Assembly: GCA_921293015.1 (NCBI GenBank)
Contig: OV121088.1
Span: forward strand, 2,976,001-3,040,000
From: Phorcus lineatus
Taxonomy: Eukaryota > Mollusca > Gastropoda > Trochida > Trochidae
Length of the DNA stretch: 64,000 bases
Direction of reading: 5' to 3'
Shown: positions 14,328 through 61,102 of the stretch, one piece after another
Numbering within the stretch: the first letter of the stretch is position 1
How the letters are laid out: the number at the start of each line of letters is the position of its first letter
Made by a program: the position numbers and the translations under genes
Notes under the pieces: model-generated
The model's input: the letters and a program-made list of their open reading frames with translations, nothing else
What the model was told of the DNA's origin: nothing
Databases searched by the model: none

Positions 14328-14386
14328 CATTGGCTCACCGTGGCAAGAACAGAGCGCCGATGCCTCTGCCTGGACAGCAGGATTCT
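14328..14386 (+). CDS. Adaptor-like gene: Pro/Arg exon preceding the duplicated block
   Basis: The acceptor TTGTTCTTCTTCCAG precedes the exon, and GATTCT|GTAAGT is a strong donor. The 59-nt exon starts with two bases of a split codon and then reads LAHRGKNRAPMPLPGQQDS, finishing in phase 0. That matches the phase-0 start of the next exon. It is basic and proline-containing (APMPLPG), in keeping with a disordered scaffold. It lies just left of the duplication border (about 14652) and has no copy in unit B. Earlier exons must exist because the start phase is not 0, but I could not locate them. Confidence 0.65.
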
Positions 14387-15166
14387 GTAAGTCATGTTGC
14401 TATGGTTACTCCAACATATCCTCCCCTCAACACAACCCTGGTAGATAATTTGTGCTATGATTAATACAATTTTTTTATGTATGACTTGTGGAATCAGAAC
14501 AGACAATGTAAGAAGTTATTTCTCAAGGTTGCATTCAAGTAAATACAATTTGATCAGAGCAAGATTTTCTGGATAAAAACTTCTTGGTTATGAAAAATTA
14601 AATCAAGACGTTTGAGATTATAATTGCTTACTTCTTCAAGCGTGAAGTTTCTGATAAAGAATAAGCACATAATCCAAATCGTCATGAATTTCATAAGAAG
14701 TAGTTCTCCAGAAAACCATGCTTTTCTAATGTATGCCAATCCTAAATGCCCTCCTAAGATATACGGCATGTTGAAACCATTGAACAGGCTTGCTGTTTTA
14801 TTTTGCCTTTTTTTCCTGCATCTAAAACATTGCACATTGTGCCTGGCAACAAAAAACAACACAAAACTACATCTGATAGAATTGAATTTTTTTCTTTACA
14901 TGATGAGTGCAAAGTCTGTTGTAAGCATAAATAAAACTGTATGATATGGTAATGATAAAACAAATGAATATATTTTTACTTTTTAGTAAAATATTATTGT
15001 GAGCCATCAATTTCCAGTCATCAAATTATTGCTTTCCATATTTAGGATGCTCCAATCTTGGCAAGATATTGTGAAATCACTTGACATTGTGTAGGAACTA
15101 CTTTCATCTTTTCACTATCAATATTTTTTCCTCCTTACTAATATTTTATTAACTTTGTTTTACAAG

Positions 15167-15244
15167 CCTTCAGATACAGCAGCACCACCACCCCTGCCAG
15201 CCAGACGTCCTCCCCCTGCACTGCCATCTCAAACTACATCTCAT
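15167..15244 (+). CDS. Adaptor-like gene: proline-rich SH3-ligand exon (unit A)
   Basis: 26 codons, phase 0 to 0. The acceptor is TTTTACAAG and the donor is CAT|GTGAGT. It encodes PSDTAAPPPLPARRPPPALP followed by SQTTSH. PPLPAR fits a class II SH3 ligand (PxxPxR) and RRPPPALP could serve in the opposite orientation. Such segments recruit SH3 adaptors in known scaffold proteins; here that is inference from the motif only. The exon is conserved in unit B (30127) with only a few residue changes, supporting coding function. Confidence 0.8.
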
Positions 15245-16370
15245 GTGAGTTCCTTGTGGTATTTCTCCTCACTGCATCGGCAGAGTTACCTCCCTTTGTC
15301 CTGTAGTATGTTTTCACAGTGTTTGATCCTTATTCTTGTAGTGATGTTAGAATGTGACATGCCTTTACCATATGGTTGTTTGAAGTCAAAGTCAATAATT
15401 ATTCTTCATATTGTAAAATAATGAAATACATAGTGTTAAGGTAAGAAAATCCAACCATTTAAGCTTAACTCAAAAGGCAATGAAAATTGAATGTTTTTAC
15501 TTATGGTATAAATGGACAAAACGGGAAGGTTAAAGGTTGTAAAAATTCTAAACCATTAATGAGTAAATATTTTTGTGTACCATTGCAACTATTATTTAGT
15601 GTTTTAAAGGCCTCCACCAATATGATTGATAAGGCCTGACACATGTTACTTTGAACTTCTTCTTCTCACTGGAGTTACCTCCCTTTAGCTAATCTTCAAT
15701 TATAAGACATATGTGAGACTAAGAATGTTTCCTTGAATTGAGGCCCTTTTTGTTGCATTGATGCTTGGTTTTTTTCATTCTAACAAATTAGACACTGGGC
15801 CTTTAACAGATTCCGGGCCTGAAGATAAATTATTTAAATTCTCTCATTTCCAAAGAGAATATGCTAATTGTGTTTTCATATTTTAATCTTTAACTATTAT
15901 TCGATATTCTTCAAAATCAATTTATATAAAATAATTGTCATGATTGCAGTCTTTGATTTTCAAAAGCTGGATAATTGATTTATCCATAAAAACTGAATGA
16001 TGCCTGCTTTATTGAGGTGACATTATTAGTGGCCGAAGGTGGACTTGAAAATACTGGGACATCTTTTCAAGGAAACAAGTTATTTTCTATTTACTCTCAT
16101 TTCTTTTGTAATCTCAATGACCTAAATTGATATCTTCTTTCAGTATAGTTTTAAAAATCTGTGTGCGTGGTTTTCTATAAGTTGTTATCAATAATATTTC
16201 TTTCTGATTCTAGTTCAACAAAACACTTACAATTGATCGTAAGGCTAAAATCAATTGTAACCAATGTTGAAAGAGTCGGCTACAATTGATTGTAACTCTA
16301 CAACTGCTTTGTGGAACAGGCCCTTGGGGCATTCTGTTTCTTATTGATTGGAGTTTCATTTTACTTTCAG

Positions 16371-16406
16371 CCAGTTCATGTTACAAAGTTAAACGCTGCC
16401 GAGGAG
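16371..16406 (+). CDS. Adaptor-like gene: 12-codon micro-exon (unit A)
   Basis: The acceptor TTTTACTTTCAG is strong and the donor is GAGGAG|GTGAGA. It encodes PVHVTKLNAAEE, phase 0 to 0. The size is at the lower limit of confident exon calling, but the acceptor tract, the frame and conservation of the first ten codons in unit B (31329) support it. No motif is recognised. Confidence 0.6.
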
Positions 16407-17538
16407 GTGAGAAAAGTCTAATATATTCCTGCATGGTGAAGGGACTTCATGCCTGCTTTATAATGTTCATCAGTTGCACATCCTATAGGAAGGAGGAGTT
16501 GATTCCTGGGGTTTATGATTTGTTACAACCCCAAGAATTATCTCCCTTTATGTTATGGCTACAAGAAGTTATGTTTTAAAATTTCAAAATTATTGATTGA
16601 ATGTACTGTTCCTTCTGTTGTAATAAAGTCTTGTTGGTTAAAAAATGAAAAAATAGAATGACCCGAACAATAAGTGACCCCATTCCCTAACCATCATGAC
16701 ATATTTTTACAATGTATAACAGTAATTCATGCTATATGTTCAAGTGGCATTGGCATGTGAATATATATATATATATGATGAATATAGTGATTATTCAAAA
16801 ACAAAATTGAATAAAAATATATCATATTTTACAATCAAAAGAATCAGTTTTGAAAATTAATGTGTTCTGATAGATTAAAGGGTCACAGAGTATGTTTTTG
16901 GAGTCAAATATGTCAAACTTCATAAAAAGTTTTATTTTATCAAGAAGACTTGGTTTGTTCATTATCTAAGTGCTTAAAAGTTCAGTATAGCGACAATGTT
17001 AAAGTCGTGATTTAATCTAAAACTGGACAATGGCGAGCATCAATGATTCAAATGTAATATTTTTAACTGATTTAGAGAAGACACCAAGACAAAAATTGGA
17101 TGGTAGTGTTGAGTAGGTAACTTAGCTAATATGTATGTAAATTGCAAGCAGAATTTCGACTTCCTGACATTTATATGGCCGCTTATCATAAATATTTGAA
17201 AACAGGAAAATATCATAGTTCTGGTATTTTAGCGAAAATTATACAACTTTAGAGGGGCGATTTGTACTGCATAGTATTTTAGCCCTTATTTCAGCCACAG
17301 AAAAAATCATCAAACATACTCAGTGTCACTTTTAAGCTAGGCAAACACATTTTGCTTTATACTTCATTATTTCCTATATGACTACAGACGATTTGGTTGA
17401 TCAATGAGATATTGACCCTCTGAAGTTAATAAATTTGGTGTAAACTTATGTTTATTTGGGAAAATTTAAGATAGAAATCCATTTTCATTCAATATGGTTG
17501 TTACCATATCTAACCAAGCTCACCCCTGACATTCACAA

Positions 17539-17997
17539 TATCCCCCTAGGGGTGAAACCGTTCACTACTACAGTAGTTGAACCGCGGTATTTTACGTTTG
17601 GTTCGATGCACTGTACATTTACATGGATTTTCGGTTCGTACTGCATATTTAATTTGTGTCCAAGATATCATTTTAATAACTTAAAAACCAAATTATATTT
17701 ATTCAAAAAGTCAATGATAAAAAATGTCTTTATTTATTATCATTAAATGTCTTCAAGTTTCGAAATTGTATCGATACCTGTCGCCATTTTCCCGGAAGTA
17801 AACATTCGGAATGATTTAGTTTAATTTTTAACTCTCAACAATAGTGTTTGAATAATGTGACTATTCAAGATCTCGTTCAAAGAAATAAGGCAACTATTGG
17901 TTTCATACCGAAACGAAAATGTACTGAACTGAGGGTGTTGTACGACGATTCGCACCGAACAAAAGCTCAAGCGTACCGTTTCACCCCTATATCCCCC
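17539..17997. mobile_element. hAT-type MITE, copy 1 (443 bp plus 8-bp target duplications)
   Basis: The element spans 17547-17989, with terminal inverted repeats TAGGGGTGAAACCGT and (right end, reversed) TAGGGGTGAAACGGTACGC. It is flanked by an 8-bp direct repeat TATCCCCC at 17539-17546 and 17990-17997. An 8-bp duplication and a YAGGGGTG end are hAT superfamily traits. There is no transposase. An orthologous copy is at 36540-36982 in unit B, with the same length. Confidence 0.85.
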
Positions 17998-18842
17998 TCC
18001 CATCTTGCCACCACTTCAAAGTTCTAGTCACAAATATGAGAGGACCTGTACATGTCTTTTCAAAATTCAATTTTCTTTTAAAAAAATGTGAAAATAAGTA
18101 GTTGTATAAATTAAATCTCATGTATATCTTGCTCTCTGTTCAAACTTTGCCTTATGTAATGTCCAGAAAGGCATTTATGAATTATTTTGATATTCCTTTG
18201 AAAATGCCTTTGGTCATTTGGCTAAATACAAACTATTCTTTTTTAACATCACTTTGAAAATCATTTGGTCTAACAGACAGTTTAATCATAATTTATTTTC
18301 ATAAAAATAGATCATTTTATCTAAAACGTTCTTTCTAAAAAGTTGTTCCAAGGGCTAACGCAGCAAAATGTCATACACTTTTTTATATCTGATGTCAAAG
18401 TGTTTTAGGTTAAAAAAAAAGAAAATACTTAGGATGAGATGAAATGATATGATCTGACAATAATGAGAAACAGAAATTGTTACTTTGTGGAAAGACTCTT
18501 GACTTGAAATGATTAGATAAGTATTTGTGTCCTTTAGGAAAAGTCTGATAAGGGTACTTATATGTATAAAAGAGATTCAAAAGGCTTTTCATGTTTGTGT
18601 AATTATGTAATGTGAAATTATAAATGCTCATCAGAAGATTTTCCTGAACAAAGAAGAATATGCGGAATGTGATACATATAGATACTCTAACGGGAACGTC
18701 TCATTGAATTTGTCTCCAAGATTGCTGCAATTATCCTGCATTTTTATTGATAAATAAAGAATCTCAACCAAGTTGATGCCAAATGTGTCAACAAAAGTTG
18801 ATTCAAGTAAAGGATATGGCTATGTATGTAATTGTAGTTAAT

Positions 18843-19778
18843 GCATATGTACTGAATTTTGATATTCCCTATAATCTCCCTGATGAAGAAGTATGCATAT
18901 GTACTGAATTTTGAAAATCCCTACAATCTCCCTGATTAAGAAGTAGGCATATGTACTGAATTTTGATAATCCCTACAATCTCCCTGATTAAGAAGTAGGC
19001 ATATGTACTGAATTTTGATAATCCCTACAATCTCCCTGATGAAGAAGTAGGCATATGTACTGAATTTTGATAATCCCTACAATCTCCCTGATTAAGAAGT
19101 AGGCATATGTACTGAATTTTGATAATCCCTACAATCTCCCTGATTAAGAAGTAGGCATATGTACTGAATTTTGATAATCCCTACAATCTCCCTGATTAAG
19201 AAGTAGGCATATGTACTGAATTTTGATAATCCCTATACTCTCCCTGATTAAGAAGTAGGCATATGTACTGAATTTTGATAATCCCTACAATCTCCCTGAT
19301 TAAGAAGTAGGCATATGTACTGAATTTTGATAATCCCTACAATCTCCCTGATTAAGAAGTAGGCATATGTACTGAATTTTGATAATCCCTATACTCTCCC
19401 TGATTAAGAAGTAGGCATATGTACTGAATTTTGATAATCCCTACAATCTCCCTGATTAAGAGGTAGGCATATGTACTGAATTTTGATAATCCCTATACTC
19501 TCCCTGATTAAGAAGTAGGCATATGTACTGAATTTTGATAATCCCTACAATCTCCCTGATTAAGAAGTAGGCATATGTACTGAATTTTGATAATCCCTAT
19601 ACTCTCCCTGATTAAGAAGTAGGCATATGTACTGAATTTTGATAATCCCTATACTCTCCCTGATCAAGAAGTAGGCATATGTACTGAATTTTGATAATCC
19701 CTACAATCTCCCTGATTAAGAAGTAGGCATATGTACTGAATTTTGATAATCCCTACAATCTCCTTGATTAAGAAGTAG
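18843..19778. repeat. 52-bp minisatellite, exactly 18 units
   Basis: The unit begins GCATATGTACTGAATTTTGA, continues through ATAATCCCTACAATCTCCCT and ends GATTAAGAAGTAG. Starts at 18843 and 19779 differ by 936 bp, exactly 18 x 52. Most units are nearly identical; a TATACTC/TACAATC variant recurs at several positions, suggesting spread by unequal exchange. Unit B has the same array with six units. Confidence 0.95.
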
Positions 19779-20590
19779 GCATATGTATCCAGACATAGTG
19801 AATGACTGTATGTTTACTTAGACTTTTCAGAAATCTTGCTTAAAATGTTTTCATTTTTTTCCCCCTATTACCAAAGAACCTTCAAAGATGATGTGACACT
19901 TACCTGACTGTATAGAGCCACTCCTTTCTGAAGTGCTTTGAATGTCAAGGTATTTTAAGTATCCAAAATAGTTCAGATTCTAATAATTTGATGAGATACT
20001 TCATTTGGTAAAATGCATATTATTCATGGTACATGTTGTTTAAATGTTAATTATTGCTTTTTATAATTTACATTTTTGAGAACAAATGTCTGTAAAAATG
20101 TAAAATGAAAACATTATCTAAATAACTTCTAAAGGTACTGCTTTCTATATTCTACCCATATTGCCATATTCATAAGATTTTGGGTTGATATAAATGGATT
20201 AATAACAAAATAAACATAACCGTTTGAATGTTCTGTGATGTGATCACATTTGCCTTCTTTAAGATTTGTTACTCATGGGTGTTATAAAGAGGCAATGTAG
20301 CTTTATTTTGAGGGGCTTCTTCCTCCTCAGGGTATCGCTTTCGACTACTTTGAAGTTTTTAACTTCCTTATTTAGTTAGATATTTCTTCAAAGTCCCCGC
20401 TCTTTTCATACAGGTTGTCGATTCGATTGCAATATCTAAAATTCTAAACATGATGAATTCCAATGTGCGACAATGTGCTTTCACTGTGGATATTATTTAT
20501 CATATAATTGTTTTTGTTTTTTGTTTTGTTGCTAAATTCTTTTTAAAGAAGATTTGATAATTGATTGCCCCCTATATTTTGTTATTTCAG

Positions 20591-20638
20591 TCAGACGAGG
20601 ATGACAGTTATGAAGAGCCTTCAACAGCAAGATTAAAC
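20591..20638 (+). CDS. Adaptor-like gene: acidic YEEP exon (unit A)
   Basis: 16 codons, phase 0 to 0, encoding SDEDDSYEEPSTARLN. The acceptor is GTTATTTCAG and the donor AAC|GTAAGC. A tyrosine in an acidic context followed by Pro at +3 (YEEP) is the pYxxP consensus bound by Crk-type SH2 domains in known proteins. Phosphorylation and Crk binding are inference. The protein is identical in unit B (38920), with only a synonymous change (GAA/GAG) seen, which argues for coding constraint. Confidence 0.8.
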
Positions 20639-21797
20639 GTAAGCATCAATCATCAAATCTTTTTAAAATTTGCAAAAACATTTCAGGAGAAGTATTTCAG
20701 AATCATATAAAATCATATTCACTTTCAAGTTTATTGTTATTTGCGTATTTCTGTAAATATGCAAGATCTGGTGATAGACGTAGAAAACTATACTTGCATG
20801 TTTATGGTATCAATTTTGTGCATGACTTTCAATAAATTAGTTAAAACTATAGATAGGAAGGGTATTTTTAAACATTTAGATATAACCACTAGATTTCAAA
20901 TATGCTACTGACATAAGCGTGGGATAAGGGAGTTTATTTTATGTCATATATATCATACATATACATTTATAAGGAAGCAAATACTTTTTTTTCTTACATG
21001 ATTTTACAAGAGTTTTGAAAATAACCTATTTCCAACGATAGCCACATTCAGTGGCATATATGTTCTTGCAAAGAAAAAATAAAATATACATATACATATG
21101 TGTATTATCGATGAGAGTTTTCTCTCTTAAAATAGTGGGAAAACTTACTAGTAATATAGTGCTGACAACTTAGTCATTATTGAAGCACAAGATGTGAGAA
21201 ACCCTTCACAGTGAAGTAGGGGCTGCAAGGGTCCAAATATATTTGAAAAATTTCCATTAGCTGATACGTCTTCTTATATACCGGCATATCATCCTTATAA
21301 GGTTTGAACATAGATTAGATTTCATCTTCCATTGTTTAAGTCACTGTAAATCTCTTTCACATTCATTTCATTCTCTTTCACGCTTGTTTTATGATTTCAT
21401 GTTCTTAAATTTTCTTTGTCTTTACTTCACTGTTTGATGATCATTTAATTTTTTTTTATCCCATTTTATTGTGATTATTTATCTATATTTGATGTTCATT
21501 TCACACTTCATCATGTTCATTTTAGTAACTTTCATGTTCATTTCACTATCTTTTATGTTCATTGCACAATTCATGTTCATTTCACTGTCTTATGTTCATT
21601 TTACACTTCACACTTCATGTTTATTTCACTATCTTTAATGTTCATTTCACACTTCATCTTGTTTGTATTTCATGTTCCTCGTATCATTACATCTGTTTCA
21701 GCATATGGCATACACCTCTTATGAAAAATTTTAGTCTTATGTGTAAAGCTTTTGATGCTTTTTTATCATGCATTGTTTACAACGATGTACCTTTCAG

Positions 21798-21908
21798 ATG
21801 TCACTGCAAGAGATTTATGATGATTTTGACGATCTCTTGGAAGATTTCCCCCCTTCCTCCACCCCTCCTCTCCCCCCTCCCCCGCCCCCATTTGCAAATT
21901 CCAGAAAA
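21798..21908 (+). CDS. Adaptor-like gene: EIYDDF plus polyproline exon (unit A)
   Basis: 37 codons, phase 0 to 0, starting MSLQEIYDDFDDLLEDF and continuing through PPSSTPPLPPPPPPF to NSRK. The acceptor is ACCTTTCAG. The donor AAA|GTTGCA is weak, but the NSRK end matches SNRK at the end of the exon at 51539, which has a better donor. One acidic Tyr motif (YDDF) is followed by a polyproline run that could bind SH3, WW or EVH1 modules. The unit B copy (42633) has lost one base in the polyproline region. Confidence 0.75.
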
Positions 21909-22084
21909 GTTGCACATTTACTCAATTCTTTTCAGTTTTGTTTTGTTTTTCTTAATATTTTTTGGCCACTGCATGATGATCCCCTCAATTCCTCTGTTTC
22001 TGGTTCTCAACTTTTTGTGCTCATATTTTATTTGTTTATTTCCACGGGATGTTTGGGTCTCTGCATTGTGAAGTGTTTACATTT

Positions 22085-22990
22085 TTAGATGGCACGGTAT
22101 GTCGACATGTGTCCGTCTGTACGTCCATAAACTTTCACTTTTTCATTTTCTTCTCTAGAAGCATTGACTCAGGAAATTTAAAATCTTGTGTACAGACTCC
22201 TTGAATAAATTAGGTTTTAATTTATATATTTGGTGATCGTGTGACCCCTGATATGTGTACTTTGTGTACAGACTCTTTAACTGATGGGGATTTTAATCTA
22301 TGTATTTGATTACCCTGTGACCCCTCCGAAGGGCCACAGGTACATCGCCCTTAAAACCTATTTTTATCATTTTCTCCAGAAGCTAGAGGCCTAGAAAGCC
22401 AAAACTTGTGTAAAGACTACTTAGCTGATGGGGATTCTAAGTTGTATAATTGTTGACCCTAAAAAGGCGAAACTTGTGTACAGACTCCTTTAACTAAGCT
22501 GATGAAGATTCTAATCTATAGATTCTGTGACATTGTGATTCCAAACAACAACCATAGCCGTCACACCGTAATAACATATTTTCACTTTCTCAAGAAGCAT
22601 TGCAAGAGGCCTAGAAAGCTGAAACTTTGTGTACAGACTCCTTAGCTGATGGGGATTCTTATTTATAGATTTGGTGACCCTGTGGCCCTAATGAAGGCAA
22701 TGCCCTATTAACCTATTTTTAGCTTCTTCTTCAGAAGCTAAATGCCTTTGAGGCTAAAATCATGCGTACAGAGTCCTTAGCTGATGAGAATTATAATAAT
22801 TTAATTTGGTGATCCTGTTGCAGCTCATATGGTGACCCTGTGACCATTTTAAAATTAAATTATAGATAGCCTGATGGGCTACAGAGCTAATGTCCTATTT
22901 TTGGATGTTTACCCCAGTTCTGTTTTTGAAAGGTTCTGTCTATATTAGCTCATCAGACCTTTTAGGCTGGATTGGCTTGATGCAGTAGCC
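22085..22990 (+). repeat. Diverged copy of the approximately 145-bp repeat family (unit A)
   Basis: It starts with TCCGTCTGTACGTCCATAAA and repeats TGTACAGACTCCTTAGCTGA, GGTGACCCTGTG and CTTCTTCAGAAGCTA-like phrases at irregular intervals. The same phrases make up the regular satellite at 56.1-58.7 kb. It ends at an AGCTCATCAGACC phrase near 22955. It is noncoding and lies in the intron after the 21798 exon. Confidence 0.7.
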
Positions 22991-24690
22991 ATTGTCCATT
23001 GTCAATAAAATCTAGACACTTTGGACTTTTCCAAAACCACTGTATCCCCCTAAGTTGAATGATTTTTTAATGCTAAAGAATTCAAATCTTTAGAAAAATC
23101 ATCTTTGTTGTATGGAGACTGTGATTTCAAAACTCCTTTTCCTGCTCTCAAAATAAGGATACAAGAGTGTACATGGGTGTAATTTTAAAGGTGTATCCAG
23201 TTGAGTGCTTCATTTAATGTTTATTCTATTTCTTTCCTGTTTCTGGTCAATTCTTTATCTTGATGTTTATGTAATTCCCTCTTATATTCATTTCATGAAA
23301 ATATAGCCTTTAGAGTAAAATCAAAAGATATGTCCTTATGAGTGAATTCTGAAGCTGTGTATTTGCTCAATCAAAACAATTTTAGGTTGTTCAAAATTAT
23401 GAGCACAACTGTCATGTTGAGGTTGTCTCCCCTGATAGACGGACTCTCTGCTAAATAAGAATTTTATCAAATTCAATGAAAATTTCACCATTTATTGAAT
23501 GGTTGATAGGTGGTGATAAATTGAATAGAAACTTAAAAGTCTTGAACCTTTGAGGGGCACAGTATGTTTTTTACTTAAATGTATCAAGCATAATTTCAGA
23601 AAAGTGTTTGCAGCAGACACAGCAATAAATTTAGTTAGGGATAGTTTTTTAAGGTCCATTTGTGTTCTTGATATGAAGGGTTTGATATTCAAGTTTAATT
23701 TTTTAATTTTTTAATTTTATAGTCTGTCTGTGCTTCCTATTTTTGGACATTTGCCAAAATCAGTTTTGCTGAGAGCCTTCTACTGGTCAATCCATCAAAT
23801 TTGACATGAAAATGTTAAGCATCATCAGCTTCATGCTCCTTTCTATTTTAAACAGTTTTAGTATATAAGCTTCAGCTTATAATGTCAGTAAACAATTTTT
23901 ATATTAATAGTAGATATGAAAAATTAACCTCCCTTTCTTACCGATAGTTTTATAACATGATTGATAACTTGAGTAATTACTTATGAAGGATGTGATTTAA
24001 GTTTGGACAAGATTTGATTTCTTTCTTGAGTATTTACAAATGAAGGATATGATTAAATTTTTTGGTGAGTTGGTGAGATATTGCTTATACATATCAAGTT
24101 AAGCAGAACTTTTCATTTCTGAAGGAAAGTTTTCCTATAAATAATAGAATTCAATTTGGAATGCTGTTAATGTTCTTGATAACCATTTAATAACAAATCC
24201 AATGTATTGAGTTGGTAATCAGTTGTAGCAATAGTTAGGCCCTCCAATTTATTTGACCTGTCATCTTTGGTAACCTAGTTATACTATGAACATAAAAACA
24301 TCCATTAGCAATTGTTCATTTGTATTTGGTAAAAATGCTTCAATAAAGTCCACAAAAACATTCATGTCATTAAATCAAATGATTCTTTTGATAGAATATA
24401 TCTTGAAATAGAAACAGAAGATCCATATACCAATTTCTTTATGGCCATGTGAGATACATTTTCCTTCTACTGTTTTAGTTCATATGCTGTCATCATCTTG
24501 AATAAGCCGAAGAACAAAAAACACTTTTCATCAAATTCAACTCCTTTATAAAATTGTTAAACTATTCTTTCAAGCCAAGGAAAAAAATATGTTAGAATTT
24601 CATGACATATTTTGAATTATAAAAATTTTCTTTTAATACTATATTCCTTCCAAATGTTTTCAATACTATTTTCCTTCAAACTTATTTCAG

Positions 24691-24777
24691 GGTAGTAAGG
24701 AAATTTACGATGATTTTGAGGAAGAAAAACTGCCTCCCATCAGTCCATACAACCCGACACAAGAAGCTCCTCAGATG
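24691..24777 (+). CDS. Adaptor-like gene: KEIYDDFEEE exon (unit A)
   Basis: 29 codons, phase 0 to 0, encoding GSKEIYDDFEEEKLPPISPY then NPTQEAPQM. The acceptor ACTTATTTCAG and donor ATG|GTAAGT are both strong. It has two tyrosines: YDDF in an acidic context, and SPYNPT. Copies occur at 45418 (identical), 50023 (two residues changed at the end) and a decayed one at 59591. The repeated EIYDD core is reminiscent of EIYDDV-type SH2-binding motifs in ADAP/FYB. Confidence 0.85.
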
Positions 24778-25020
24778 GTAAGTGGCAAAACGTTGTACAA
24801 CTTTGTACAACATTGTACAACCATTTACAACAACCTTGTTTTGTTTTTTATCAAAGTATGTACAATTGTTCACAAGAGCCTTGGTTGGTTATTAACAAAA
24901 CTTTGTACAACGTTGTACAACAATTCATATATTGTCTTACAAGAACTTTGGAGATTATTAACCAAACATTGTAAATTCTTCATAAGAACCTCAGCAGGTA
25001 ACTATTTGTACAACGACTTA

Positions 25021-27592
25021 TAGACCCTTTTTCGCACGCTCATTTACATATGACCTTGACCTCATTAACATTATAGCTGATCGTGGTGGAGGCAAAACAT
25101 GGCGGCGAGTGGACTGGCGGCTGACTAACATTTTATACTAATCTTCTGTCTTATCAACTACTGATACAAGTAAACAACGGGGGAGTAGCATCCCTGATGT
25201 TTTTTAAATCAGAATAACTTTTAACTGAGGATTGTCAACCAAAATTTCAACTTGCGAGAAGGGTCCATGTCTGCAAGACGACGTAAACAGTGAGACCCAC
25301 ATGTTTATTACTGAGATCCCAGTAATGATAGCAACTAGCAAAGTGATGTGGCAACCATTCCTGATATATTAAACGTATGTAACTATATATACTAGAAAAT
25401 TATTAGAGAATATTCTTCAAAGTTTTATTTCAATTTCTTAGCGTTATTTTTTGCTGTTCTCTCGCGTTTACTTCATTATATTGACAGGTCAGATAAATGT
25501 AACCTAGCTTTATCTAGATATACCTCTATATCTTACCCAAATAGTTGGCCATGGTGATAGGATTTCATCACTTTCTCTCAGAGTAATTTTTCATATTAAC
25601 ATTGATAATTGGGTAGTCTCAATGTGAACATCTAAATACAGAGCCTCTCATCAATCAACAGAAATTGAAGAAACTAATTTAAAAAAATTTATGAAATATG
25701 GAATGGCATGCCATATTTGATAGAAAAAATTTGTATATTATTTTTTAATTGTGGAATTGATATTAATTGTGAATGGGATAACTCCCTTTGTATCACAAAA
25801 ATTATTCATCTGTCAAATATTGCCATGGGAAGCAAAATCTATTTGGTAAAATGCCCAGGTAATAATCAATATACATATATTTTAATTATCTGCATATACT
25901 GGCATCCAATTAATTTTCCCTTTCTGACAACCTCATGCAGTGTGTCAGGCAAAGATTGGACTGTCAATCATAAATAGTTTTCCCAAGGTATTTCATTTTC
26001 ATCATTAAATTGAATGCATAGACTTAAAATACAATAACATTCTAAATATGAAATAAACTAGATGAGATAAGTTGGGCTTGTTGGAATTTTTATTTTTAAT
26101 ATTGTTCCAATTTATCAGTAAATAAATCATAGTTCATAATTGAAAAAGTTACAGATATCCTTAACCTTTTTGTCTTGTTTATGAATCTAAATGTTACTAA
26201 TACAAATAAATGATGAATTAAGTGAAATAATAACTGTTCATATTATTTCTCAAATAATTTCTTAGATGAATTAGTGAATATCAATAAGAATAGCTAAAGC
26301 TGTAGCTCATTTATAGTAAAAGAGAATTGAAAATGTTCAAATTTCAACCAATTTCCTCTGGTTACATGTTTTGTGTACAAGTAAAATATATTTGAAACTT
26401 TCAAACCCGTATCGAGCATCTTACTTTTTATCAAACAATATAAATGCAAGAACAAATGCAAATATAAAAACAGACTGTCTACTAGCAGTGAAAAATATTT
26501 TTTCAATATTGAAACATGCATTTCACTTGAAATAGGATAAGGAGGAGGTGACTATCAACATTCTTGACTCCCGTCCAGACTTTTGATTATTTTCTGGTGA
26601 AATACTTTAAATATATTTAAATTTTGTTAACTAAATGGTAAATGGTTGTGTTTCAATGGCTCTTTTGGTGAAAAAAGCAAAACTCCATTGCTAAAAATTC
26701 TAGGAAAAAAATCACATTGCTTGATTGTGTTACTCATTGTGAAATACTTCATCATTTCAAAATAATATCTATATATAAATTTGCATATTTTTTGCGTCTC
26801 TGAAATTAGAAAATAACATCTATAGGATAAAAGCAATTACATAAATGTCTTTCGTTACCTTTATTAATTGACTCTCCATTAAAAAAAAGATAGTTAATTG
26901 GAACGTTTTATGAAAGTAAATTGCTTTTATCTTTGTACTATAAAATTTATCTACAAATTGAAAAGATACAAGAAAAAGAGTCTTTATTGATGTACAGTAG
27001 GGGTTTATCACTATCAGGGTTTCACATTCTTTGAAATATTAATTAGTAAAATATCCTGTGGCTATAACATAATAAACCCGTGTCAGCAAATCATAGGCCT
27101 AGCCATCACTAGACTGGGTCTGGATCAAAGAGAGAAAGTTGTTCCCTTTTTTAGGAGACCGGTGTACTATTTTAGAGTCTTATTTAATCATATTTATGTC
27201 AGATGTGTGATTTTGTATCAAAATACAAATTAAATATTGTTTTACAAGACCTATATTGTGTCTGTGGCTTTAATTTATTTGCTGATACATCGATATATCA
27301 ATGTTTGTAAAGAAGCTACAAAGGCGTCGTCACTTGACAATCTACATCCCGTCTAAAAATAATTTAAAGATAGGTTTGGTGAAATATACATTTAAATACA
27401 AAATATTTACGACCAATTCTCGCTAATAATGCTATGTTTATGGTGGAATTACTTCAAAACATTTGAAAACTAGTTGAATGTTGAGGTGAGTGGAGGCGAG
27501 TGGAGGCACACTACGGAGCTTCCGGTCTTTCTGCCTCCACTAAAAATTCCTGAGCTAGCCGTCGCGTGATTTTTCCCGCGAAAAAGGGTCTA
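25021..27592. mobile_element. TAGACC-ended DNA transposon, non-autonomous, 2.57 kb
   Basis: The terminal inverted repeats are TAGACCCTTTTTCGC at 25021 and its complement GCGAAAAAGGGTCTA ending at 27592. The insert interrupts the TTGTACAAC-rich intron that continues on both sides. No coding frame for a transposase is seen. The first six bases match those of the element at 31532 (TAGACC). Aligning the flanks with related intron copies suggests either a TA duplication or none. Confidence 0.8.
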
Positions 27593-27811
27593 TAAGAAAC
27601 TTCTTGGGTTATTAACCCAATGTACAATCCTTCATTAGAACCTCAGGAAGTTAGTGACCCAAATTTATTGAACCACTTACAAAAACATTGGGCAGTTATC
27701 AACCAACATATGTAAAAATAAATTCACAAGAAATTCAGGAGGTAAGTTATCAAACACATCCATTATAACAACCCCATAAGCAAAGCCAATTGAACCCCTT
27801 TTAGAATACTG

Positions 27812-28853
27812 TAAGGTCAGTAACAGATATTAGTACAACCCATCACAAGGTCAGTAATGGATATATGTACAACCTCTAACTAGGTCAGTTACAGATATTA
27901 GTACATCCCCTCACAAGTTCAGCAACAGATATATGTACAACCCCTCACAAGGTCAGTAACAGATATCTGTACAACCCCTCACAAGGTTAGTAACAGATAT
28001 ATGTACAACCCCTCACAAGTTCAGTAACAGATATTAGTACAACCCCTCACAAGGTCAGTAACAGATATATGTACAACCCCTCACAAGGTGAGTAACAGAT
28101 ATATGTACAACCCCTCACAAGGTCAGTAACAGATGTATGTACAACCCCTCACAAGGTCAGTAACAGATATATGTACAACCCCTCACAAGTTCAGTAACAG
28201 ATATTAGTACAACCCCTCACAAGGTCAGTAACAGATATATGTACAACCCCTCACAAGGTCAGTAACAGATATATGTACAACCCCTCACAAGGTTAGTAAT
28301 AGATATATGTACAACCCCTCACAAGTTCAGTAACAGATATTAGTACAACCCCTCACAAGGTCAGTAGCAGATATATGTACAACCCCTCACAAGGTGAGTA
28401 ACAGATATATGTACAACCCCTCACAAGGTCAGTAACAGATGTATGTACAACCCCTCACAAGGTCAGTAACAGATATATGTACAACCCCTCACAAGTTCAG
28501 TAACAGATATTAGTACAACCCCTCACAAAGTCAGTAACAGATATATGTACAACCCCTCACAAGGTGAGTAACAGATATATGTACAACCCCTCACAAGGTC
28601 AGTAACAGATGTATGTACAACCCCTCACAAGGTTAGTAACAGATATAAGTACAACCCCTAACAAGGTTAGTAACAGATATTCGTACAACCCCTCACAAGT
28701 TCAGCAACAGATATATGTACAACCCCTCACAAGGTTAGTATCAGATATATGTACAACCCCTCACAAGGTCAGTAACAGATATATGTACAACCCCTTACAA
28801 GTTCAGCAACAGATATATGTACAACCCCTAACAAGGTCAGTAACAGATGTATG
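27812..28853. repeat. 34-bp satellite, about 31 units
   Basis: The unit reads GTACAACCCCTCACAAGGTC then AGTAACAGATATAT. Variants (TTAGTACA, AAGGTGAGTAAC, AAGTTCAGTAAC, GATGTATGT) recur in the same order about every 170 bp, giving a higher-order repeat of roughly five units. Open frames across it are a by-product of the repeat. It lies in the intron before the exon at 29405. Confidence 0.95.
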
Positions 28854-29404
28854 TGGGTTTGGTATCTTATTAAATGCCAACCCTCACAAGTTTAGTGACT
28901 GATATATTTTCAACCCCTCAAAAACACCTAGAGACTTTGACAATCCATTTAAGACCTATATCTTCAGACAAAAAACTCACAAAATTAGCAGCCAAAATAC
29001 TTAGATCCCTCTTACAACCTCAAAACTTCAGCAACACAAAACTGTACAAAGATATAGAAAACCTCATGAGGTGAGTTATTGAGAAGCAGTTAAGGAATAT
29101 TAAACATACAAGCAGCTTCCTGCTGCTCCTGGTCAATCAATCCCAGTGGTGATTGACCTGTTCTCCTCCTTGTGTCTCAACTCACTGGGAAGTATACAAC
29201 ACATGGGCCTTCTGAAGGTATCTGGAGATTTCTGAGCTAAAAATAACGGGGGCATGTAAACATCATGATTGTCCTGATCAGCAGATAGAAATACTGCTTA
29301 ATTGTTTCAACATAACCATGATGTTTAAGTAATGAAATGTCCCTGGCTAAACCATATTATTTCTTGATATGCCAATGAAATTGTTTTTACTAAATTTGTT
29401 TCAG

Positions 29405-29449
29405 ATTTATGATGATTTTGAAGAGGAACAACATGGAGAAATTTATGAG
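29405..29449 (+). CDS. Adaptor-like gene: double-Tyr IYDDFEEEQHGEIYE exon (unit A)
   Basis: 15 codons, phase 0 to 0. The acceptor is AATTTGTTTCAG and the donor GAG|GTGAGA. It encodes IYDDFEEEQHGEIYE with two tyrosines 12 residues apart, both preceded by Ile and followed by acidic residues. That spacing could let one exon present paired phosphotyrosines. Identical protein at 50933; variant IYDDFEEEQHGKIYK at 61058. Confidence 0.8.
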
Positions 29450-47045: not shown

Positions 47046-47049
47046 TTAA

Positions 47050-49308: not shown

Positions 49309-49312
49309 TTAT

Positions 49313-50022
49313 TTATAACTTGAGTAATTACTTATGAAGGATGTGATTTAAGTTTGGACGAGATTTGATTTCTTTCTTGAGTATTTACAAATGAAGGATA
49401 TGATTTAAGTTTTTGGTGAGATATTGCTTATACATATCGAGTTAAGCAGAACTTTTCATTTCTGAAGGAAAGTTTTCCTATAAATAATAGAATTCAATTT
49501 TGAATGCTGTTAATGTTCTTGATAACCATTTAATAACAAATCCAATGTATTGAGTTGGTAATCAGTTGAAGCAATAGTAAGGCCCTCCAATTTATTTGAC
49601 CTGTCATCTTTGGTAACCTAGTTATACTGTGAACATAAAAACATCCATTAGCAATTGTTCATTTGTATTTGGTAAAAATGTTTCAATAAAGTCCACAAAA
49701 ACCTTCATGTCATTTAATCAAATGATTCTTTTGATAGAATATCTCTTGAAATAGAAACAGAAGATCCATAAACCAATTTCTTTATGGCCATGTGAGATAC
49801 ATTTTCCTTCTACTGTTTTAGTTCATATGCTGTCATCATCTTGAATAAGCCGAAGAACAAAAAACATTTCATCAAATTCAACTCCTTTATAAAATTGTTT
49901 TCAAGCCAAGGAAAAAAATATGTTAGAATTTCATGACTTATTTTGAATTATAAAAATCTTTCTTTTAATACTATATTCCTTCCAAATGTTTTCAATACTA
50001 TTTTCCTTCAAACTTATTTCAG
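49313..50022 (+). repeat. Extra partial copy of the intron before the KEIYDDF exon
   Basis: Begins abruptly at the piggyBac-like end with TTATAACTTGAGTAATTACT and is colinear with about 23970-24690 and 44695-45417, with more substitutions than those two show to each other. It carries the exon at 50023. Confidence 0.85.
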
Positions 50023-50109
50023 GGTAGTAAGGAAATTTACGATGATTTTGAGGAAGAAAAACTGCCTCCCATCAGTCCATACAACCCGACACAAGAAGCT
50101 TTTCAGGAA
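50023..50109 (+). CDS. Adaptor-like gene: KEIYDDFEEE exon (third copy)
   Basis: 29 codons, phase 0 to 0: GSKEIYDDFEEEKLPPISPY then NPTQEAFQE. The last codons differ from the 24691 copy (FQE for PQM), but the donor GAA|GTAAGT is preserved. In unit B two such exons therefore lie in series (45418 and 50023), doubling the motif dose if both are spliced in. Confidence 0.75.
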
Positions 50110-50352
50110 GTAAGTGGCAAAACGTTGTACAACTTTGCATAACATTGTACAACCATTTACAACAACCTTGTTTTGTTTTTTTACCAAAGTATGTACAATT
50201 GTTCACAAGAGCCTTGGTTGGTTATTTACAAAACTTTATACAATTTTGCACACCAATTCATATATTGTCCTACAAGAACTTTGTAGATTATTAACCAAAA
50301 ATTGTACAATTCCTCATAAGTACGTACCTCATCAGGCAACTATTTGTACAAC

Positions 50353-50653
50353 TATTCTTTAAACTCTATGAACTTGGTATTAAAGGTAATGTTTGGAAAC
50401 TATTACACCACTGTTACACTAATGCTCAATCATTTGTGTCATATCAAGGGGAGAGGTCAGAAAACTACCTAGTCAAGCAAGGTGTAGGGCAAGGTAGAGT
50501 TATATCCGCATGGTTTTTTCTCGTTTTCATTAACGACTTAATTACATCTTTAAGACAAGGTAACTGTGGTATCAATGTTTTCGGTGTTGACGTCCCATCT
50601 GTCAATATTTGAACAAACACAGAGGTATTTTGCTAGATTAGTACAAGGTCTTG
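50353..50653 (+). pseudogene. Shortened copy of the LINE RT relic
   Basis: Near-identical to 45743-45990 up to GACGTCCCATCTGTC, then jumps to AATATTTGAACAAAC, equivalent to about 46420, deleting roughly 430 bp. It ends at GTACAAGGTCTTG, after which sequence matches unit A from about 29117. It shows the LINE relic was present before the local exon-copy duplication. Confidence 0.7.
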
Positions 50654-50932: not shown

Positions 50933-50977
50933 ATTTATGATGATTTTGAAGAGGAACAACATGGAGAAATTTATGAG
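50933..50977 (+). CDS. Adaptor-like gene: double-Tyr IYDDFEEEQHGEIYE exon (unit B)
   Basis: Same 15-residue product as 29405-29449, with acceptor AATTTGTTTCAG and donor GAG|GTGAGA. Phase 0 to 0. It is the last exon of unit B; unique sequence resumes at about 51105. Confidence 0.8.
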
Positions 50978-51538: not shown

Positions 51539-51667
51539 GATGCTGATGATTGTGGCCCCGCAGTGACAGTTCTGTCGCCCACAAGACAAGCCCCACCCCT
51601 ACCCTCAATGGAGGGACGCAGAAGGGGGTCCCAGCCTTCTCTCCCCCCAGTGCCTTCAAATAGAAAG
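51539..51667 (+). CDS. Adaptor-like gene: Pro/Arg-rich exon after the duplication
   Basis: 43 codons, phase 0 to 0. The acceptor is TTTTCTATATCCAG and the donor AAG|GTCAGG. It encodes DADDCGPAVTVLSPTRQAPP, then LPSMEGRRRGSQPSLPPVPS and NRK. SPTRQAPPLP and QPSLPPVPSNRK are SH3-ligand-like; GRRRGSQPS resembles a basophilic kinase or 14-3-3 type site. The SNRK ending matches NSRK of the 21798 exon, hinting at shared descent. Single copy in the window. Confidence 0.75.
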
Positions 51668-52075
51668 GTCAGGGTTCATCTTGAAATCAATCAAATATTC
51701 CTCACTTGACTTTTAATTTCTTTTATCCCTGAATGTGCTTCAAAAATTTACATAGATGTTTTATTCCGTGAATAGAGACAGAGAAGAGTGTCAGATCCCC
51801 ATTCTGCAATAGATTCTTTTAATTAACCCTCAATTTAATCAAATAAGCTGCTGGGAGACTATTAGGACTGAAATTCCAAACTCATCACTGTGACAAAACC
51901 TGACCTCACTAAGTCGTTTCCCTTTCTCAGAATAATGAATGCAGATGGGATTGCTTCTTCTGTATTTCTTATCCCCACTGAAATGAAGATTAAATTTTAA
52001 TTACTATTTTCAAACTATCAAACCAAATTTCCCAACTTTCAAATTTATGTTTTCCTGATGTATTACTGATATATC

Positions 52076-52165
52076 ATTTATTTTCGCGGGGTGTTATTTT
52101 CGCGCAAACATATAAAATGACTGATTCGCGGGGTTTAATTTTCGCGCATATCGACTAAGCAACAG
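52076..52165. repeat. TTTTCGCG-type repeat fragment
   Basis: TTATTTTCGCGGGGTGTTAT, then TTTCGCGCAAAC, TTCGCGGGGTTTAA and TTTTCGCGCATAT. Two CpG-rich half repeats in AT-rich DNA, probably the end of a transposon. No partner end was found. Confidence 0.4.
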
Positions 52166-55818: not shown

Positions 55819-55856
55819 ATATATATGAAACTACAGAGGATTTAGAAAAAGATGCG
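55819..55856 (+). CDS. Possible adaptor-gene exon IYETTEDLEKDA
   Basis: The acceptor TTTCTTTACAG precedes 55819 and GCG|GTGAGT follows. After two bases of a split codon it reads IYETTEDLEKDA, an acidic Tyr motif like the other exons. The start phase (38 nt) does not match the phase-0 end of exon 51539, so either an unseen exon lies between or this is a false positive. Confidence 0.4.
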
Positions 55857-56061: not shown

Positions 56062-58725
56062 GCTCATCAGGTCTGAAAGACCAGATGGGCTTATGGCATG
56101 GCAAGGCGTCCGGCGTCCGGCAGCCGTCCGTAAAATTTTCACTTTTTCGACTTCTACTCCAGAACCAATGACTCTAGAGAGCTGAAATTTTATGTGCATA
56201 CTCTTTGGCAAATGGGGATTCCAAATTAAATTGTAGATTTCGTGACCCCATGACCCCAAATGGGGTCACAAGGGTCAAAACCTTAAAAATCTATTTTAAT
56301 CTTCTTCTCCGGTTACAAAAGGTCCAGAGAGCTGAAAAGTTGTGTGTAGACTCCTTGGGCACTGGAGATTCTAAATTGTAGATTTTGTGACCTCATGACC
56401 CCAAATGAGGTCACAGGGGTCAAAACATGAAAACTTATTTTCATCTTCTTCTCCAGTTCCAAAAGGTCCAGAGAGCTGAATAGTTGTGTGTAGACTCCTT
56501 TGGCACTGGAGATTCTAAATTGTAGGTTTGGTGACCCAATGACCCCAAATGGGGTCACGGGTCAAAAACTGAAAAACCTAATTTCATCTTCTTCTCCAGT
56601 TCCAAAAGGTCTAGAGAGCTGAAAAGGTATGTGTAGACTCCTTGGCCAATGGGGATTCTAAATTGTAGGTTTGGTGACCCCATGACCCCAAATGGGGTCA
56701 CAGGAGTCAAAACCTAAAAAACCTAATTTAATCTTTTTCCCTAGTTCCAAAAGGTCTAGAGAGCTGAAAAGGTGTGTGTAGACTCCTTGGCCAATGGGGA
56801 TTCTTAATTGTAGGTTTGGTGACCCCATGACCCCAAATGGGGTCACAGGGGTCAAAACCTAAAAATACTAATTTCGTCTTTTTCCCTAGTTCCAAAAGGT
56901 CCAGAGAGCTGAATAGTTGTGTGTAGACTCCTTGGGCACTGGAGAATCTAAATTGTAGGTTTGGTGACGCCATGACCCCAAATGGGGTCACAGGGGTCAA
57001 AACCTGAAAAACCTATTTTCATCTTTTTCTCCAGTTCCAAAAGGTCTAGAGAGCTGAAAAGGTGTGTGTAGACTCCTTGACCAACGGGGATTCTAAATTG
57101 TAGGTTTGGTGACCCCATGACCCCAAATGGGGTCACAGGGGTCAAAACCTAAGAAACCTAATTTAATCTTTTTCCCTAGTTCCAAAAGGTCTAGAGAGCT
57201 GATAAGGTGTGTGTAGATTCCTTGGCCAACGGGGATTCTAAATTGTAGGTTTGGTGACCACTTGACCCCAAATGGGGTCACAGGGGTCAAAACCTAAAAA
57301 ACCTAATTTAATCTTTTTCCCTAGTTCCAAAAAGTCTAGAGCTGAAAAGGTGTGTGTAGACTCCTTGGCCAACAGGGATCTAAATTGTAGGTTTGGTGAC
57401 CCCATGACCCCAAATGGGGTCACAGGGGTCAAACCCTAAAAATGCTAATTTCGTCTTTTTCCCTAGTTCCAAAAGGTCCAGAGAGCTGAAAAATTGTGTG
57501 AAGACTCCTTGTACACCGGGGATTCTAAATTGTAGGTTTGGTGACCACTTGACCCCAAATGGGGTCACAGGGGTCAAAACCTAAAAAACCTAATTTAATC
57601 TTTTTCCCTAGTTCCAAAAGGTCTAGAGAGCTGAAAAGGTGTGTGTAGACTCATTGGCCAACAGGGATCTAAATTGTAGGTTTGGTGACCCCATGACCCC
57701 AAATGGGGTCACAGGGGTCAAAACCTAAAAATACTAATTTCGTCTTTTTCCCTAGTTCCAAAAGGTCCAGAGAGCTGAATAGTTGTGTGTAGACTCCTTG
57801 GGCACTGGAGAATCTAAATTGTAGGTTTGGTGACCCAATGACCCCAAATGGGGTCACAGGGGTCAAAACCTGAAAAACCTAATTTCATCTTTTTCTCCAG
57901 TTCCAAAAGGTCTAGAGAGCTGAAAAGGTGTGTGTAGACTCCTTGACCAACGGGGATTCTAAATTGTAGGTTTGGTGACCCCATGACCCCAAATGGGGTC
58001 ACAGGGGTCAAAACCTAAGAAACCTAATTTAATCTTTTTCCCTAGTTCCAAAAGGTCTAGAGAGCTGATAAGGTGTGTGTAGATTCCTTGGCCAACGGGG
58101 ATTCTAAATTGTAGGTTTGGTGACCCCATGACGCCAAATTCGGTCACAGGGGTCAAACCCTAAAAATCCTAATTTCATCTTTTTCCCTAGTTCCAAAAGG
58201 TCTAGAGAGCTGAAAAATTGTGTGAAGACTCCTTGTTTACTGGGGATTCTAAATTGTAGGTTTGGTGACCACTTGACCCCAAATGGGGTCACAGGGGTCA
58301 AAACCTTAAAATCCTACTTTCCTCTTCTTCTCCAGTTCCAAAAGGTCTTGATAGTTTAATAGTTGTGTGTAGACTCCTTGGACAATGGGGATTCTAAATT
58401 ATAGGTTTGGTGACCCCATGACGCCAAATGGGGTCACAGGGGTCAAAACCTAAAAACCTAATTTCCTCTTTTTCCCTAGTTCCAAAAGGTCTAGAGAGCT
58501 GAAAAATTGTGTGAAGACCCTTTGGACACTGGGGATTCTAAATTGTAGTTTTGGTGACCACTTGACCCAAAATGGGGTTACAGGGGTCAAAACCTTAAAA
58601 TCCTACTTTCATCTTCTTCTCGAGTTCCAAAAGGTCTTGATAGCTTAATAGTTGTGTGTAGACTCCTTGGACAATGGGGATTCTGAATTGTAGGTTCGGT
58701 GACCCCTTGACCCCAAATGGGCAAT
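56062..58725 (+). repeat. Approximately 145-bp satellite, about 18 units
   Basis: Starts with AGCTCATCAGGTCTGAAAGA and GGCGTCCGGCGTCCGG, then tandem units of 142-147 bp. Each unit has TGACCCCAAATGGGGTCA, CAGGGGTCAAAACCT, TTTTTCCCTAGTTCC, AAAAGGTCTAGAGAGC and GTGTGTAGACTCCTTGG. Short minus-strand frames of about 65 codons recur every 145 bp but rotate through the three frames, so they are not a protein repeat. Confidence 0.95.
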
Positions 58726-59239: not shown

Positions 59240-59745
59240 TCAATGAACATAAAAAACATCCATTAGCAATTGTTCATTTGTATAAAATTTCCTAAAAATG
59301 TTTCAATAAAGTCCACAAAAACCTTCATGTCATTAAATCAAATGATTCTTTTGATAGAATATATCTTAAAATAGAAACAGAAGATCCTGAAACCAATTTC
59401 TTTATGGCCATGTGAGATACATTTTCCTTCTACTGTTTTAGTTCATATGCTGTCATCATCTTGAATAAGCTGAAGAACAAAAAACATTTCATCAAATTCA
59501 ACTCCTTTATATAATGATTAAACCATTCTCTCAAACCAAGGTAAAACATTCTTAATCTTCATGACATATATATTAAATTATATTATTTTGAAATTTATGA
59601 AAATTTTGAGGAAGACGAATCGCCTCCCATAAGTCCATACAACCCGACACAAGAGGTCAGTGGCAAAACGTTGTACAACAATTTATTCATCGTCTTACAA
59701 GAACTTTGTAGATTATTAACCAAACATTGTACAATTCTTCATAAG
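59240..59745 (+). repeat. Third partial copy of the adaptor-gene intron
   Basis: AACATCCATTAGCAATTGTT onward matches about 24290-24770, with more substitutions and small deletions than the other copies. It ends at about 59745 (AAGAACCTCAGCA). Carries the decayed exon at 59591. Confidence 0.8.
59591..59655 (+). pseudogene. Decayed KEIYDDF exon (fourth copy)
   Basis: Reads EIYENFEEDESPPISPYNPT then QE, ending at GAG|GTCAGT. The acceptor and the GSK codons are gone: where the others have CTTATTTCAGGG, this copy has TTATATTATTTTG. YDDF has become YENF. Without an AG acceptor at the usual place it is unlikely to be spliced. Confidence 0.7.
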
Positions 59746-60126
59746 AACCTCAGCACTAATTATGATTGAAAACCGGACAGTGGCGCGTCAAATTGTCAAA
59801 CCTAATTTTGGAGACTTATCTAAAACAGCCAGGAGGGCAGTTAGGAGTTGTTGCACACCTCGGTGTGATATGTTCCCATTCTTTTAACATTGGTTCATTC
59901 TCATATCGACCTCTTATGACGTAATCATCGGTTGTTTCTCCATATCGCCCTAGGGCACTATCACATATCATTCAAATCAGTTATTATGTCCCTTGTTTTT
60001 AGTTGAAGGCTATATGCCATGACCACCAACTACGCAGGTGGGTGTTATGAGATGTTCAACCTACACAAACGATTAGACTTGTAAAATTTTGATAGTTTTA
60101 CAAATTAAGTATATAAGACTTGACAT

Positions 60127-60203
60127 AAGCGAAAGAGGGATTCGAACCCGGGACCTCTTTGCTGGCGAGTAACGCCTTTACCATTTGAGCTAACGAGGAT
60201 CCC
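60127..60203 (-). repeat. tRNA-like element (SINE head or tRNA pseudogene)
   Basis: On the minus strand: TTAGCTCAAATGGTAAAGGC (A-box-like D arm), then GGTCCCGGGTTCGAATCCC (perfect B box and T arm). The anticodon arm and acceptor stem do not pair well, so a working tRNA is doubtful. It resembles tRNA-derived SINE heads. Confidence 0.5.
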
Positions 60204-60618
60204 TGCCTGTAACCGTACATTTTGTTGTGTCATGTCTTTCTGTTTTCCCCCTGGTAAATATATAAATGTATATGTATATATTCATGAAAATATATAGGTG
60301 TAAGGTTATGTCAATTTCTAATCTTTAGAATCAAATATTTAGCATTAAAATCTCAAGCAGCCAGATATTGTTAATATCCTACTGGACTCGTTAGCTCAGG
60401 ACACATAAACACGCAAAGTAAAACGTTTACAAATTAATTTTATAAAAACTATTTGGTTTGAAAACTTTGTAGGAATGTTCCGCGAGAGTGTAAGCAAAAT
60501 GATGACCGGATTGCTAACGCCCTCGCGAGATTTTTTGCCATAATCGCCAGTCACCCGGTCATTATTTACTACGTACAATTATTTTAATCATTTTTTTATA
60601 AAATAATTTCATTTCTTA

Positions 60619-60745
60619 ACTACGATGTGTAAGTCAAATAGCAACCTCCGCCTTGGTTGATATAGAAATGAACACGCTCGCTACCGCTTGCGCGTTCATT
60701 TCTATATCAACCGAGGGCAGAGGTTGCTTTTTACTACATAGCGTT
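60619..60745. repeat. Fold-back inverted repeat
   Basis: The left arm 60641-60677 (GCAACCTCCGCCTTGGTTGA then TATAGAAATGAACACGC) pairs with the right arm 60690-60727 with about four mismatches and a 12-bp loop. Outer parts pair more loosely. Probably a fold-back MITE or a recombined palindrome; it could form a long hairpin in RNA. Confidence 0.8.
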
Positions 60746-60954
60746 TGTTAGGTTACTTTTGTATATAACTGGTATTCATTCATATTGTACGTGATATCTA
60801 CACCTCTGTGCATTTATAAGGCTGTTTTTAGATTTACATGGAAAACCAGTCTTTTGGACATGATAAGTTAGATATTTTGATTTATATCACCATATATGAC
60901 ATTTAGGTTCGTATCAAAGGTAAATAATATGTTATGAAAATCACCGAGTGGCTC

Positions 60955-61057
60955 TTTAATTGTTTCAACATAACCATGATGCTTAAGTAGTTAAATGTTG
61001 CTGGCTAATCCATATCATTTTTTGATATACTATAATATGCCAATGAAATTATTTCAG
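60955..61057 (+). repeat. Third copy of the intron before the double-Tyr exon
   Basis: TGTTTCAACATAACCATGAT to TATGCCAATGAAATTATTTCAG matches 29307-29404 and 50837-50932 with small indels. 59746-60954 in between is unrelated and includes the tRNA-like and fold-back repeats. Confidence 0.75.
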
Positions 61058-61102
61058 ATTTATGATGATTTTGAAGAGGAACAACATGGAAAAATTTATA
61101 AG
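61058..61102 (+). CDS. Adaptor-like gene: IYDDFEEEQHGKIYK exon (third copy)
   Basis: 15 codons, phase 0 to 0. The acceptor is GAAATTATTTCAG and the donor AAG|GTAAGA, better than in the other copies. Two Glu to Lys changes (GKIYK) alter the charge around the second tyrosine while IYDDFEEE is intact. The TAGACC transposon begins 55 bp downstream in the intron. Confidence 0.7.

Follow-up and report, generated by a model that had tools for sequence, protein, structure and literature searches.

The window analyzed here is a stretch of 64,000 nucleotides (nt) corresponding to C13:2976001-3040000 of a 958-Mb genome; positions are given relative to the window unless they are prefixed with C13. It contains a series of short exons on the plus strand, in which we recognize what is probably an incomplete duplicate of the middle part of an adaptor gene of the SLP-76/BLNK family, repeated internally and damaged. 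An apparently whole, single-copy version of such a gene, referred to here as the sister gene, lies about 230 kb from the window. The initial annotation had proposed that the window houses one working multi-tyrosine adaptor gene built from symmetric exon cassettes. The exons do carry the proline-rich or acidic-tyrosine ligand segments of a multi-tyrosine adaptor, but the proposal of a working gene was not borne out: the 3' half, including the SH2 domain, is missing, the probable start codon reads TTG, and several copies carry frameshifts or splice-site losses.

A search of the genome with the peptides of the 87-, 45-, and 129-nt exons returned 11 matches, 8 of which were in the window. The remainder comprised two matches on the minus strand of the same contig (C13:3268157 and C13:3270903) and one chance-level match on C19 that contained two stops. 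The region C13:3240001-3308000 was fetched and compared, which placed the sister locus at C13:3253.1-3281.5 kb on the minus strand. Its exon series is colinear with that of the window and unduplicated (59, 78, 36, 48, 120, 87, 45, and 129 nt); after these come a 25-, a 38-, and a 19-nt exon, four proline-rich exons (303, 261, 143, and 99 nt), and an SH2 region split over three exons. This chain is a prediction for which exons were chosen by splice scores, phase, and homology; its 18 coding exons give 609 codons without a stop when read from the ATG of the 59-nt exon, and all predicted acceptors are AG and all predicted donors GT. The C-terminal SH2 domain (residues 504 to 585 of 609) matches Pfam family PF00017 with an E value of 6.6e-13, above the Pfam cutoff. 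In a comparison with the PDB, its best match was BLNK (2eo6; E value, 1.4e-14), which came top among 43 distinct sequences at an E value of 1e-9 or better, followed by SHP2 (E value, 1.1e-11). Tyrosines in acidic context are Y64 (YEEP), Y80, Y119, Y144 (YDDF), Y156 (YEDA), Y211 (YETT), and Y488 (YDDA); there are three YDDF motifs, and residues 1 to 480 contain 21% proline. With a human SAM as the query, no convincing SAM match was obtained in the 26.5 kb upstream of the first recognized exon (C13:3281.5-3308.0 kb), and a search for a PH domain restricted to C13:3260001-3280000 gave a best E value of 5. As judged from sequence, the sister is apparently a whole single-copy gene of the SLP-76/BLNK type. 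A 52-bp tandem repeat with a higher period of 148 bp (C13:3254114-3255119) lies over the start of one of its SH2 exons, and more than 10 intronic copies of this repeat carry the splice acceptor and first codons (DGTFLV) of the real SH2 exon.

The motif exons of the window are more numerous than expected by chance. In a scan that required phase 0-0 exons to combine good splice-site scores with acidic-tyrosine motifs, the plus strand of the window yielded 7 motif hits in 6 exons; its minus strand yielded none, and neither did the two 100-kb flanks on either strand. In 60 second-order Markov simulations, the mean was 0.017 and the maximum 1. These settings miss some true copies, including those of the 45-nt exon at 50933 and 61058. 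In all, the window contains eight YDDF motifs, with tyrosine codons near 21816, 24706, 29408, 42651, 45433, 50038, 50936, and 61061, and a ninth motif position has been altered to YENF (59590). The initial annotation was thus right in counting eight such motifs in series; what it took for a row of eight exons goes back to three exon types (111, 87, and 45 nt), whose number was raised by a tandem duplication of 15 kb and by smaller copying events. Self-alignment of the window delimits two units on the plus strand, unit 1 at 14651-29580 and unit 2 at 29594-51106, the latter enlarged by insertions and an additional copy of the 87-nt exon. The units were duplicated together with their introns and are 94 to 99% identical in the five blocks compared. 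This additional copy in unit 2 is seen as a match of the 87-nt exon region at 44687-45993 to 49311-50603, and partial third copies are found at 59243-59755 and 60956-61159. As an alternative source of the repeated units, a haplotype or assembly artifact was judged unlikely: the surrounding 264 kb contain no N, and the copies differ by 1 to 9% and carry different insertions.

The individual exons, all on the plus strand, are arranged as follows. The series opens with the 59-nt exon (14328-14386; LAHRGKNRAPMPLPGQQDS). Unit 1 then contains the 78-nt exon (15167-15244; PSDTAAPPPLPARRPPPALPSQTTSH, resembling an SH3 ligand), the 36-nt exon (16371-16406; PVHVTKLNAAEE), and the 48-nt exon (20591-20638; SDEDDSYEEPSTARLN), the last two identical to their sister counterparts, as well as the 111/120-nt exon (21798-21917, with the 111-nt form ending at 21908; MSLQEIYDDFDDLLEDFPPSS...), the 87-nt exon (24691-24777; GSKEIYDDFEEEKLPPISPYNPTQEAPQM), and the 45-nt exon (29405-29449; IYDDFEEEQHGEIYE). 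In unit 2, the 78-nt exon (30127-30204) encodes the same peptide as that of the sister, the 36-nt exon has grown to 40 nt (31329-31368), and the 48-nt exon (38920-38967) carries a single synonymous change; these are followed by the 111/120-nt exon (42633-42751), the 87-nt exon (45418-45504), which is identical to that of unit 1, its additional copy (50023-50109), and the 45-nt exon (50933-50977). Beyond the units lie the 129-nt proline-rich exon (51539-51667), the 38-nt exon (55819-55856; (D)IYETTEDLEKDA), which begins in phase 2, a degenerate 87-nt exon copy with the YENF motif (59581-59655), and a third copy of the 45-nt exon (61058-61102; IYDDFEEEQHGKIYK). Among the exons at 14328-29449 and those of 129 and 38 nt, all but the 59- and 38-nt ones are phase 0-0. 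The lengths given in the initial annotation (78, 36, 48, 111, 87, 45, and 129 nt, phase 0-0) were found on the plus strand, with the reservations that 4 of the 18 exon copies counted are broken (31329, both 111-nt copies, and 59581) and that the length of 111 nt depends on a weak GT (GTTGCA), the sister exon measuring 120 nt. Its first exon, at 14328, is the 59-nt one and does not belong to the symmetric series. The joined window exons gave nothing useful against Pfam and the PDB, and Rfam had no match within the window.

Similarity to the sister spans positions 11217 to 59223, with additional fragments at 64865-65678, and a number of lesions are seen along it. (i) The ATG of the sister 59-nt exon (MAHRGK...) reads TTG in the window (14330), which is probably a lost start codon. 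(ii) The donor of the 120-nt exon, CACAG|gtactc in the sister, is CACATTTACTC in unit 1, and in both units CACAG|gt has become CACATTT. (iii) In unit 2, a net insertion of 4 nt puts the 36-nt exon out of frame, and the 111-nt exon has lost 1 base in its proline codons. (iv) In the fourth 87-nt copy, at 59581, the acceptor is lost and 12 nt are missing. (v) The 25-nt exon that bridges the 129- and 38-nt exons in the sister is missing between them in the window, which breaks the frame at the 129-to-38 junction; similarity in a relic of the preceding intron (52025-52079) ends just before that exon, and an altered copy of 28 nt is found outside the window, at 65147. Consequently, an open frame across consecutive window exons fails at the 40-nt exon (31329), the 1-nt deletion (42633), the lost donors, and the absent 25-nt exon. 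(vi) Seven 3' exon peptides of the sister (four proline-rich pieces, the YDDA exon, and two of the three SH2 exons) gave nothing convincing in the 264 kb around the window, a search extending 103 kb past the last exon of the window; their better matches were the 78- and 111-nt exons of the window itself. When SH2 or SH3 exons were sought in or just beyond the window by motif scanning and with a local SH2 profile, the only yield was an SH3BP2-like gene located upstream. Because the SH2 and other 3' exons are missing and frame, splice sites, and probably the start codon are damaged, the window copy is most likely a decaying unprocessed pseudogene array that makes nothing or at most a fragment.

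Several observations weigh against this interpretation or leave it less tidy. Over a combined 195 nt, three exons of unit 1 (36, 48, and 111 nt) show no difference from their sister counterparts, whereas the surrounding blocks differ by 4 to 9%, which suggests either constraint or conversion. Between window and sister, we counted 14.0 synonymous changes over 144.8 sites and 18.0 nonsynonymous changes over 482.2 sites (209 codons), a ratio of nonsynonymous to synonymous rates (dN/dS) of 0.37; for unit 2 alone, the values were 6.0 over 55.7 and 8.0 over 202.3 (86 codons), with a dN/dS of 0.35. Such ratios fit a window branch that is neutral and a sister under strong constraint, but they also fit partial constraint on both; since a neutral window branch accounting for about half of dS would give a similar nonsynonymous count, dN/dS does not decide. 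The ATG of the sister may be internal, with the 5' end of that gene lying beyond the recognized exons. Finally, in four of the five blocks, units 1 and 2 resemble each other more closely than either resembles the sister, and a copying of the segment first with the tandem duplication later is the likely order of events; in the block around the 48-nt exon, however, identity between the units (0.939) is lower than that of either to the sister (0.948 and 0.950), so that this order is not clean.

A rival reading is that the locus is still expressed. In that case, a shortened adaptor without SH2 but with several YDDF cassettes would be made, the broken exons being skipped thanks to their symmetry, and this product would serve as a decoy or sponge that ties up the SH2 partners of the intact protein. 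In both units, the exons of 48, 87, and 45 nt have remained intact with good splice sites, which agrees with such a product, as does the 195-nt identity in unit 1. Given that the start codon is probably lost, that the absent 25-nt exon puts the 129-to-38 junction out of frame, and that no 3' end was recognized, we regard expression of this kind as unlikely. The more elaborate proposal, in which cassettes of the SH2-less multi-YDDF protein are skipped or repeated, this protein competes with the intact one for SH2 partners, and the YDDF motifs of the latter, in cis with an SLP-type SH2 domain, possibly allow head-to-tail assembly, appears quite doubtful to us.

Two other assignments of the window exons were considered in addition to a damaged duplicate. 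Membership in a gene of the ADAP/FYB type was suggested by the EIYDDF motif, which resembles the YDDV motifs of ADAP (PMC2908683). The helically extended SH3 domain (hSH3; PF14603) gave no match in the 264 kb, and the sister ends in an SH2 domain nearest to that of BLNK. Genome-wide, no hSH3 was reported at an E value of 0.001, and control genomes were equally silent, so that absence from the whole genome is unproved. An ADAP/FYB-type gene, contradicted by the SH2 domain of the sister, is extremely improbable; the likeness to known immune adaptors noted in the initial annotation thus holds for the SLP-76 side, where the SH2 domain of the sister places the gene in the SLP-76/BLNK type, and is unsupported for ADAP/FYB. 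We also considered the SH3BP2-like gene 77 kb upstream, of which the window exons might be a displaced middle portion brought in through unusual splicing, since the phases of exon B of that gene and of the 59-nt exon fit and its middle looked short. This explanation was dropped once the complete sister was found, in which the same exons stand in frame with an SH2 domain of their own; the SH3BP2-like gene also has its own PH and SH2 domains, and we consider such displacement highly improbable.

The damaged duplicate would have arisen in two steps. A segment with the first ten or so exons would have been copied in inverted orientation, and inside this inverted copy a 15-kb block would then have been duplicated in tandem. 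Because the exons are symmetric, this tandem duplication was possible without damage to the frame; the copying foreseen in the initial annotation is indeed seen, and the frame at the borders is unchanged. Scaffolds of the SLP-76/BLNK type recruit SH2 proteins through phosphotyrosines and SH3 proteins through proline segments, and they dock through their own SH2 domain. By analogy, the intact sister would serve as a scaffold. Its acidic tyrosines (YEEP, three YDDF, YED, YET, and YDDA) would bind SH2 proteins once a tyrosine kinase has phosphorylated them, its proline-rich exons would bind SH3 proteins, and its C-terminal SH2 domain would dock the scaffold on a phosphorylated partner.

The SH3BP2-like gene upstream of the window is a second adaptor gene (C13:2891.7-2913.1 kb, plus strand). 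Its PH exons matched a human PH domain with E values of 2.3e-8 and 7e-5, and across the 264 kb, PH was found in this gene only. Its SH2 domain has SH3BP2 as the best PDB match (E value, 4.3e-4) and matches Pfam SH2 with an E value of 3e-8; further copies are a close one at C13:31897468-31900182 (plus strand; 80 to 92% per exon) and a distant one at C13:6699208-6699360 (minus strand; 45%). A minisatellite in the window with a 52-bp unit is present 18.2 times in unit 1 (18843-19787) and only 6.2 times in unit 2 (37835-38155), and others have units of 34 bp (30.6 times; 27813-28854) and 145 bp (17.6 times; 56173-58721), the 145-bp family also occurring in an intron of the SH3BP2-like gene. A dispersed repeat occurs twice in unit 2 (39202-41581 and 47046-49279), and a 1.6-kb part of it has a copy of about 90% identity in the last intron of the SH3BP2-like gene and one of 81% at window-relative 130.7-132.3 kb. 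Unit 2 further contains, on the minus strand, an open frame of 855 amino acids (33963-36530) with no significant Pfam match (DUF6589; E value, 0.26). The adjoining segment (32480-34091) recurs inverted at 61154-62761 with 91.6% identity, so that the frame looks like part of a mobile element.

The sister shares acidic tyrosine motifs, a proline-rich middle, and a single C-terminal SH2 domain with BLNK, SLP-76 (LCP2), and CLNK, and differs from them by its three YDDF motifs in an SLP-type chain; no SAM was found in the 26.5 kb upstream of its first recognized exon, and the window copy differs in having no recognized SH2 domain. With ADAP/FYB, the shared features are acidic tyrosine motifs of the YDD-hydrophobic type and proline-rich stretches; no hSH3 was found, and ADAP, unlike the sister, is not known to have an SH2 domain. 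SH3BP2 (3BP2) similarly combines acidic tyrosines, proline-rich segments, and a C-terminal SH2 domain but differs by an N-terminal PH domain, and it is the BLNK-like gene to which the cassette exons belong. Symmetric exons duplicated in tandem and pseudogenes arising as unprocessed duplicates are general classes; in the window, phase 0-0 exons were likewise multiplied with their introns, but inside an already incomplete copy. Amphioxus slp76 is reported to have SAM, WW, and SH2 domains and a proline-rich region, and both SAM and WW are reported absent from squirt slp76 (PMC5431462); a BLNK-like protein of a sea star is reported to have SAM and SH2 (PMC11593052). A mollusc SLP-76/BLNK gene is not described in the literature searched, including the accessible portion of PMC5431462, which is not proof of absence.

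What appeared to be a new multi-tyrosine adaptor thus becomes a partial duplicate, which illustrates how phase 0-0 ligand exons can be multiplied, and beside it stands an apparently complete BLNK/SLP-76-type gene in a seemingly invertebrate genome. Were the duplicate expressed, an adaptor-and-sponge pair would have originated from one partial duplication. In vertebrates, ADAP presents motifs of the YDDF class to the SH2 domain of SLP-76. Should the intact gene be confirmed, the presence of three YDDF motifs next to an SLP-type SH2 domain would raise the question of whether an ADAP-type ligand and an SLP-76-type reader were once in one chain.

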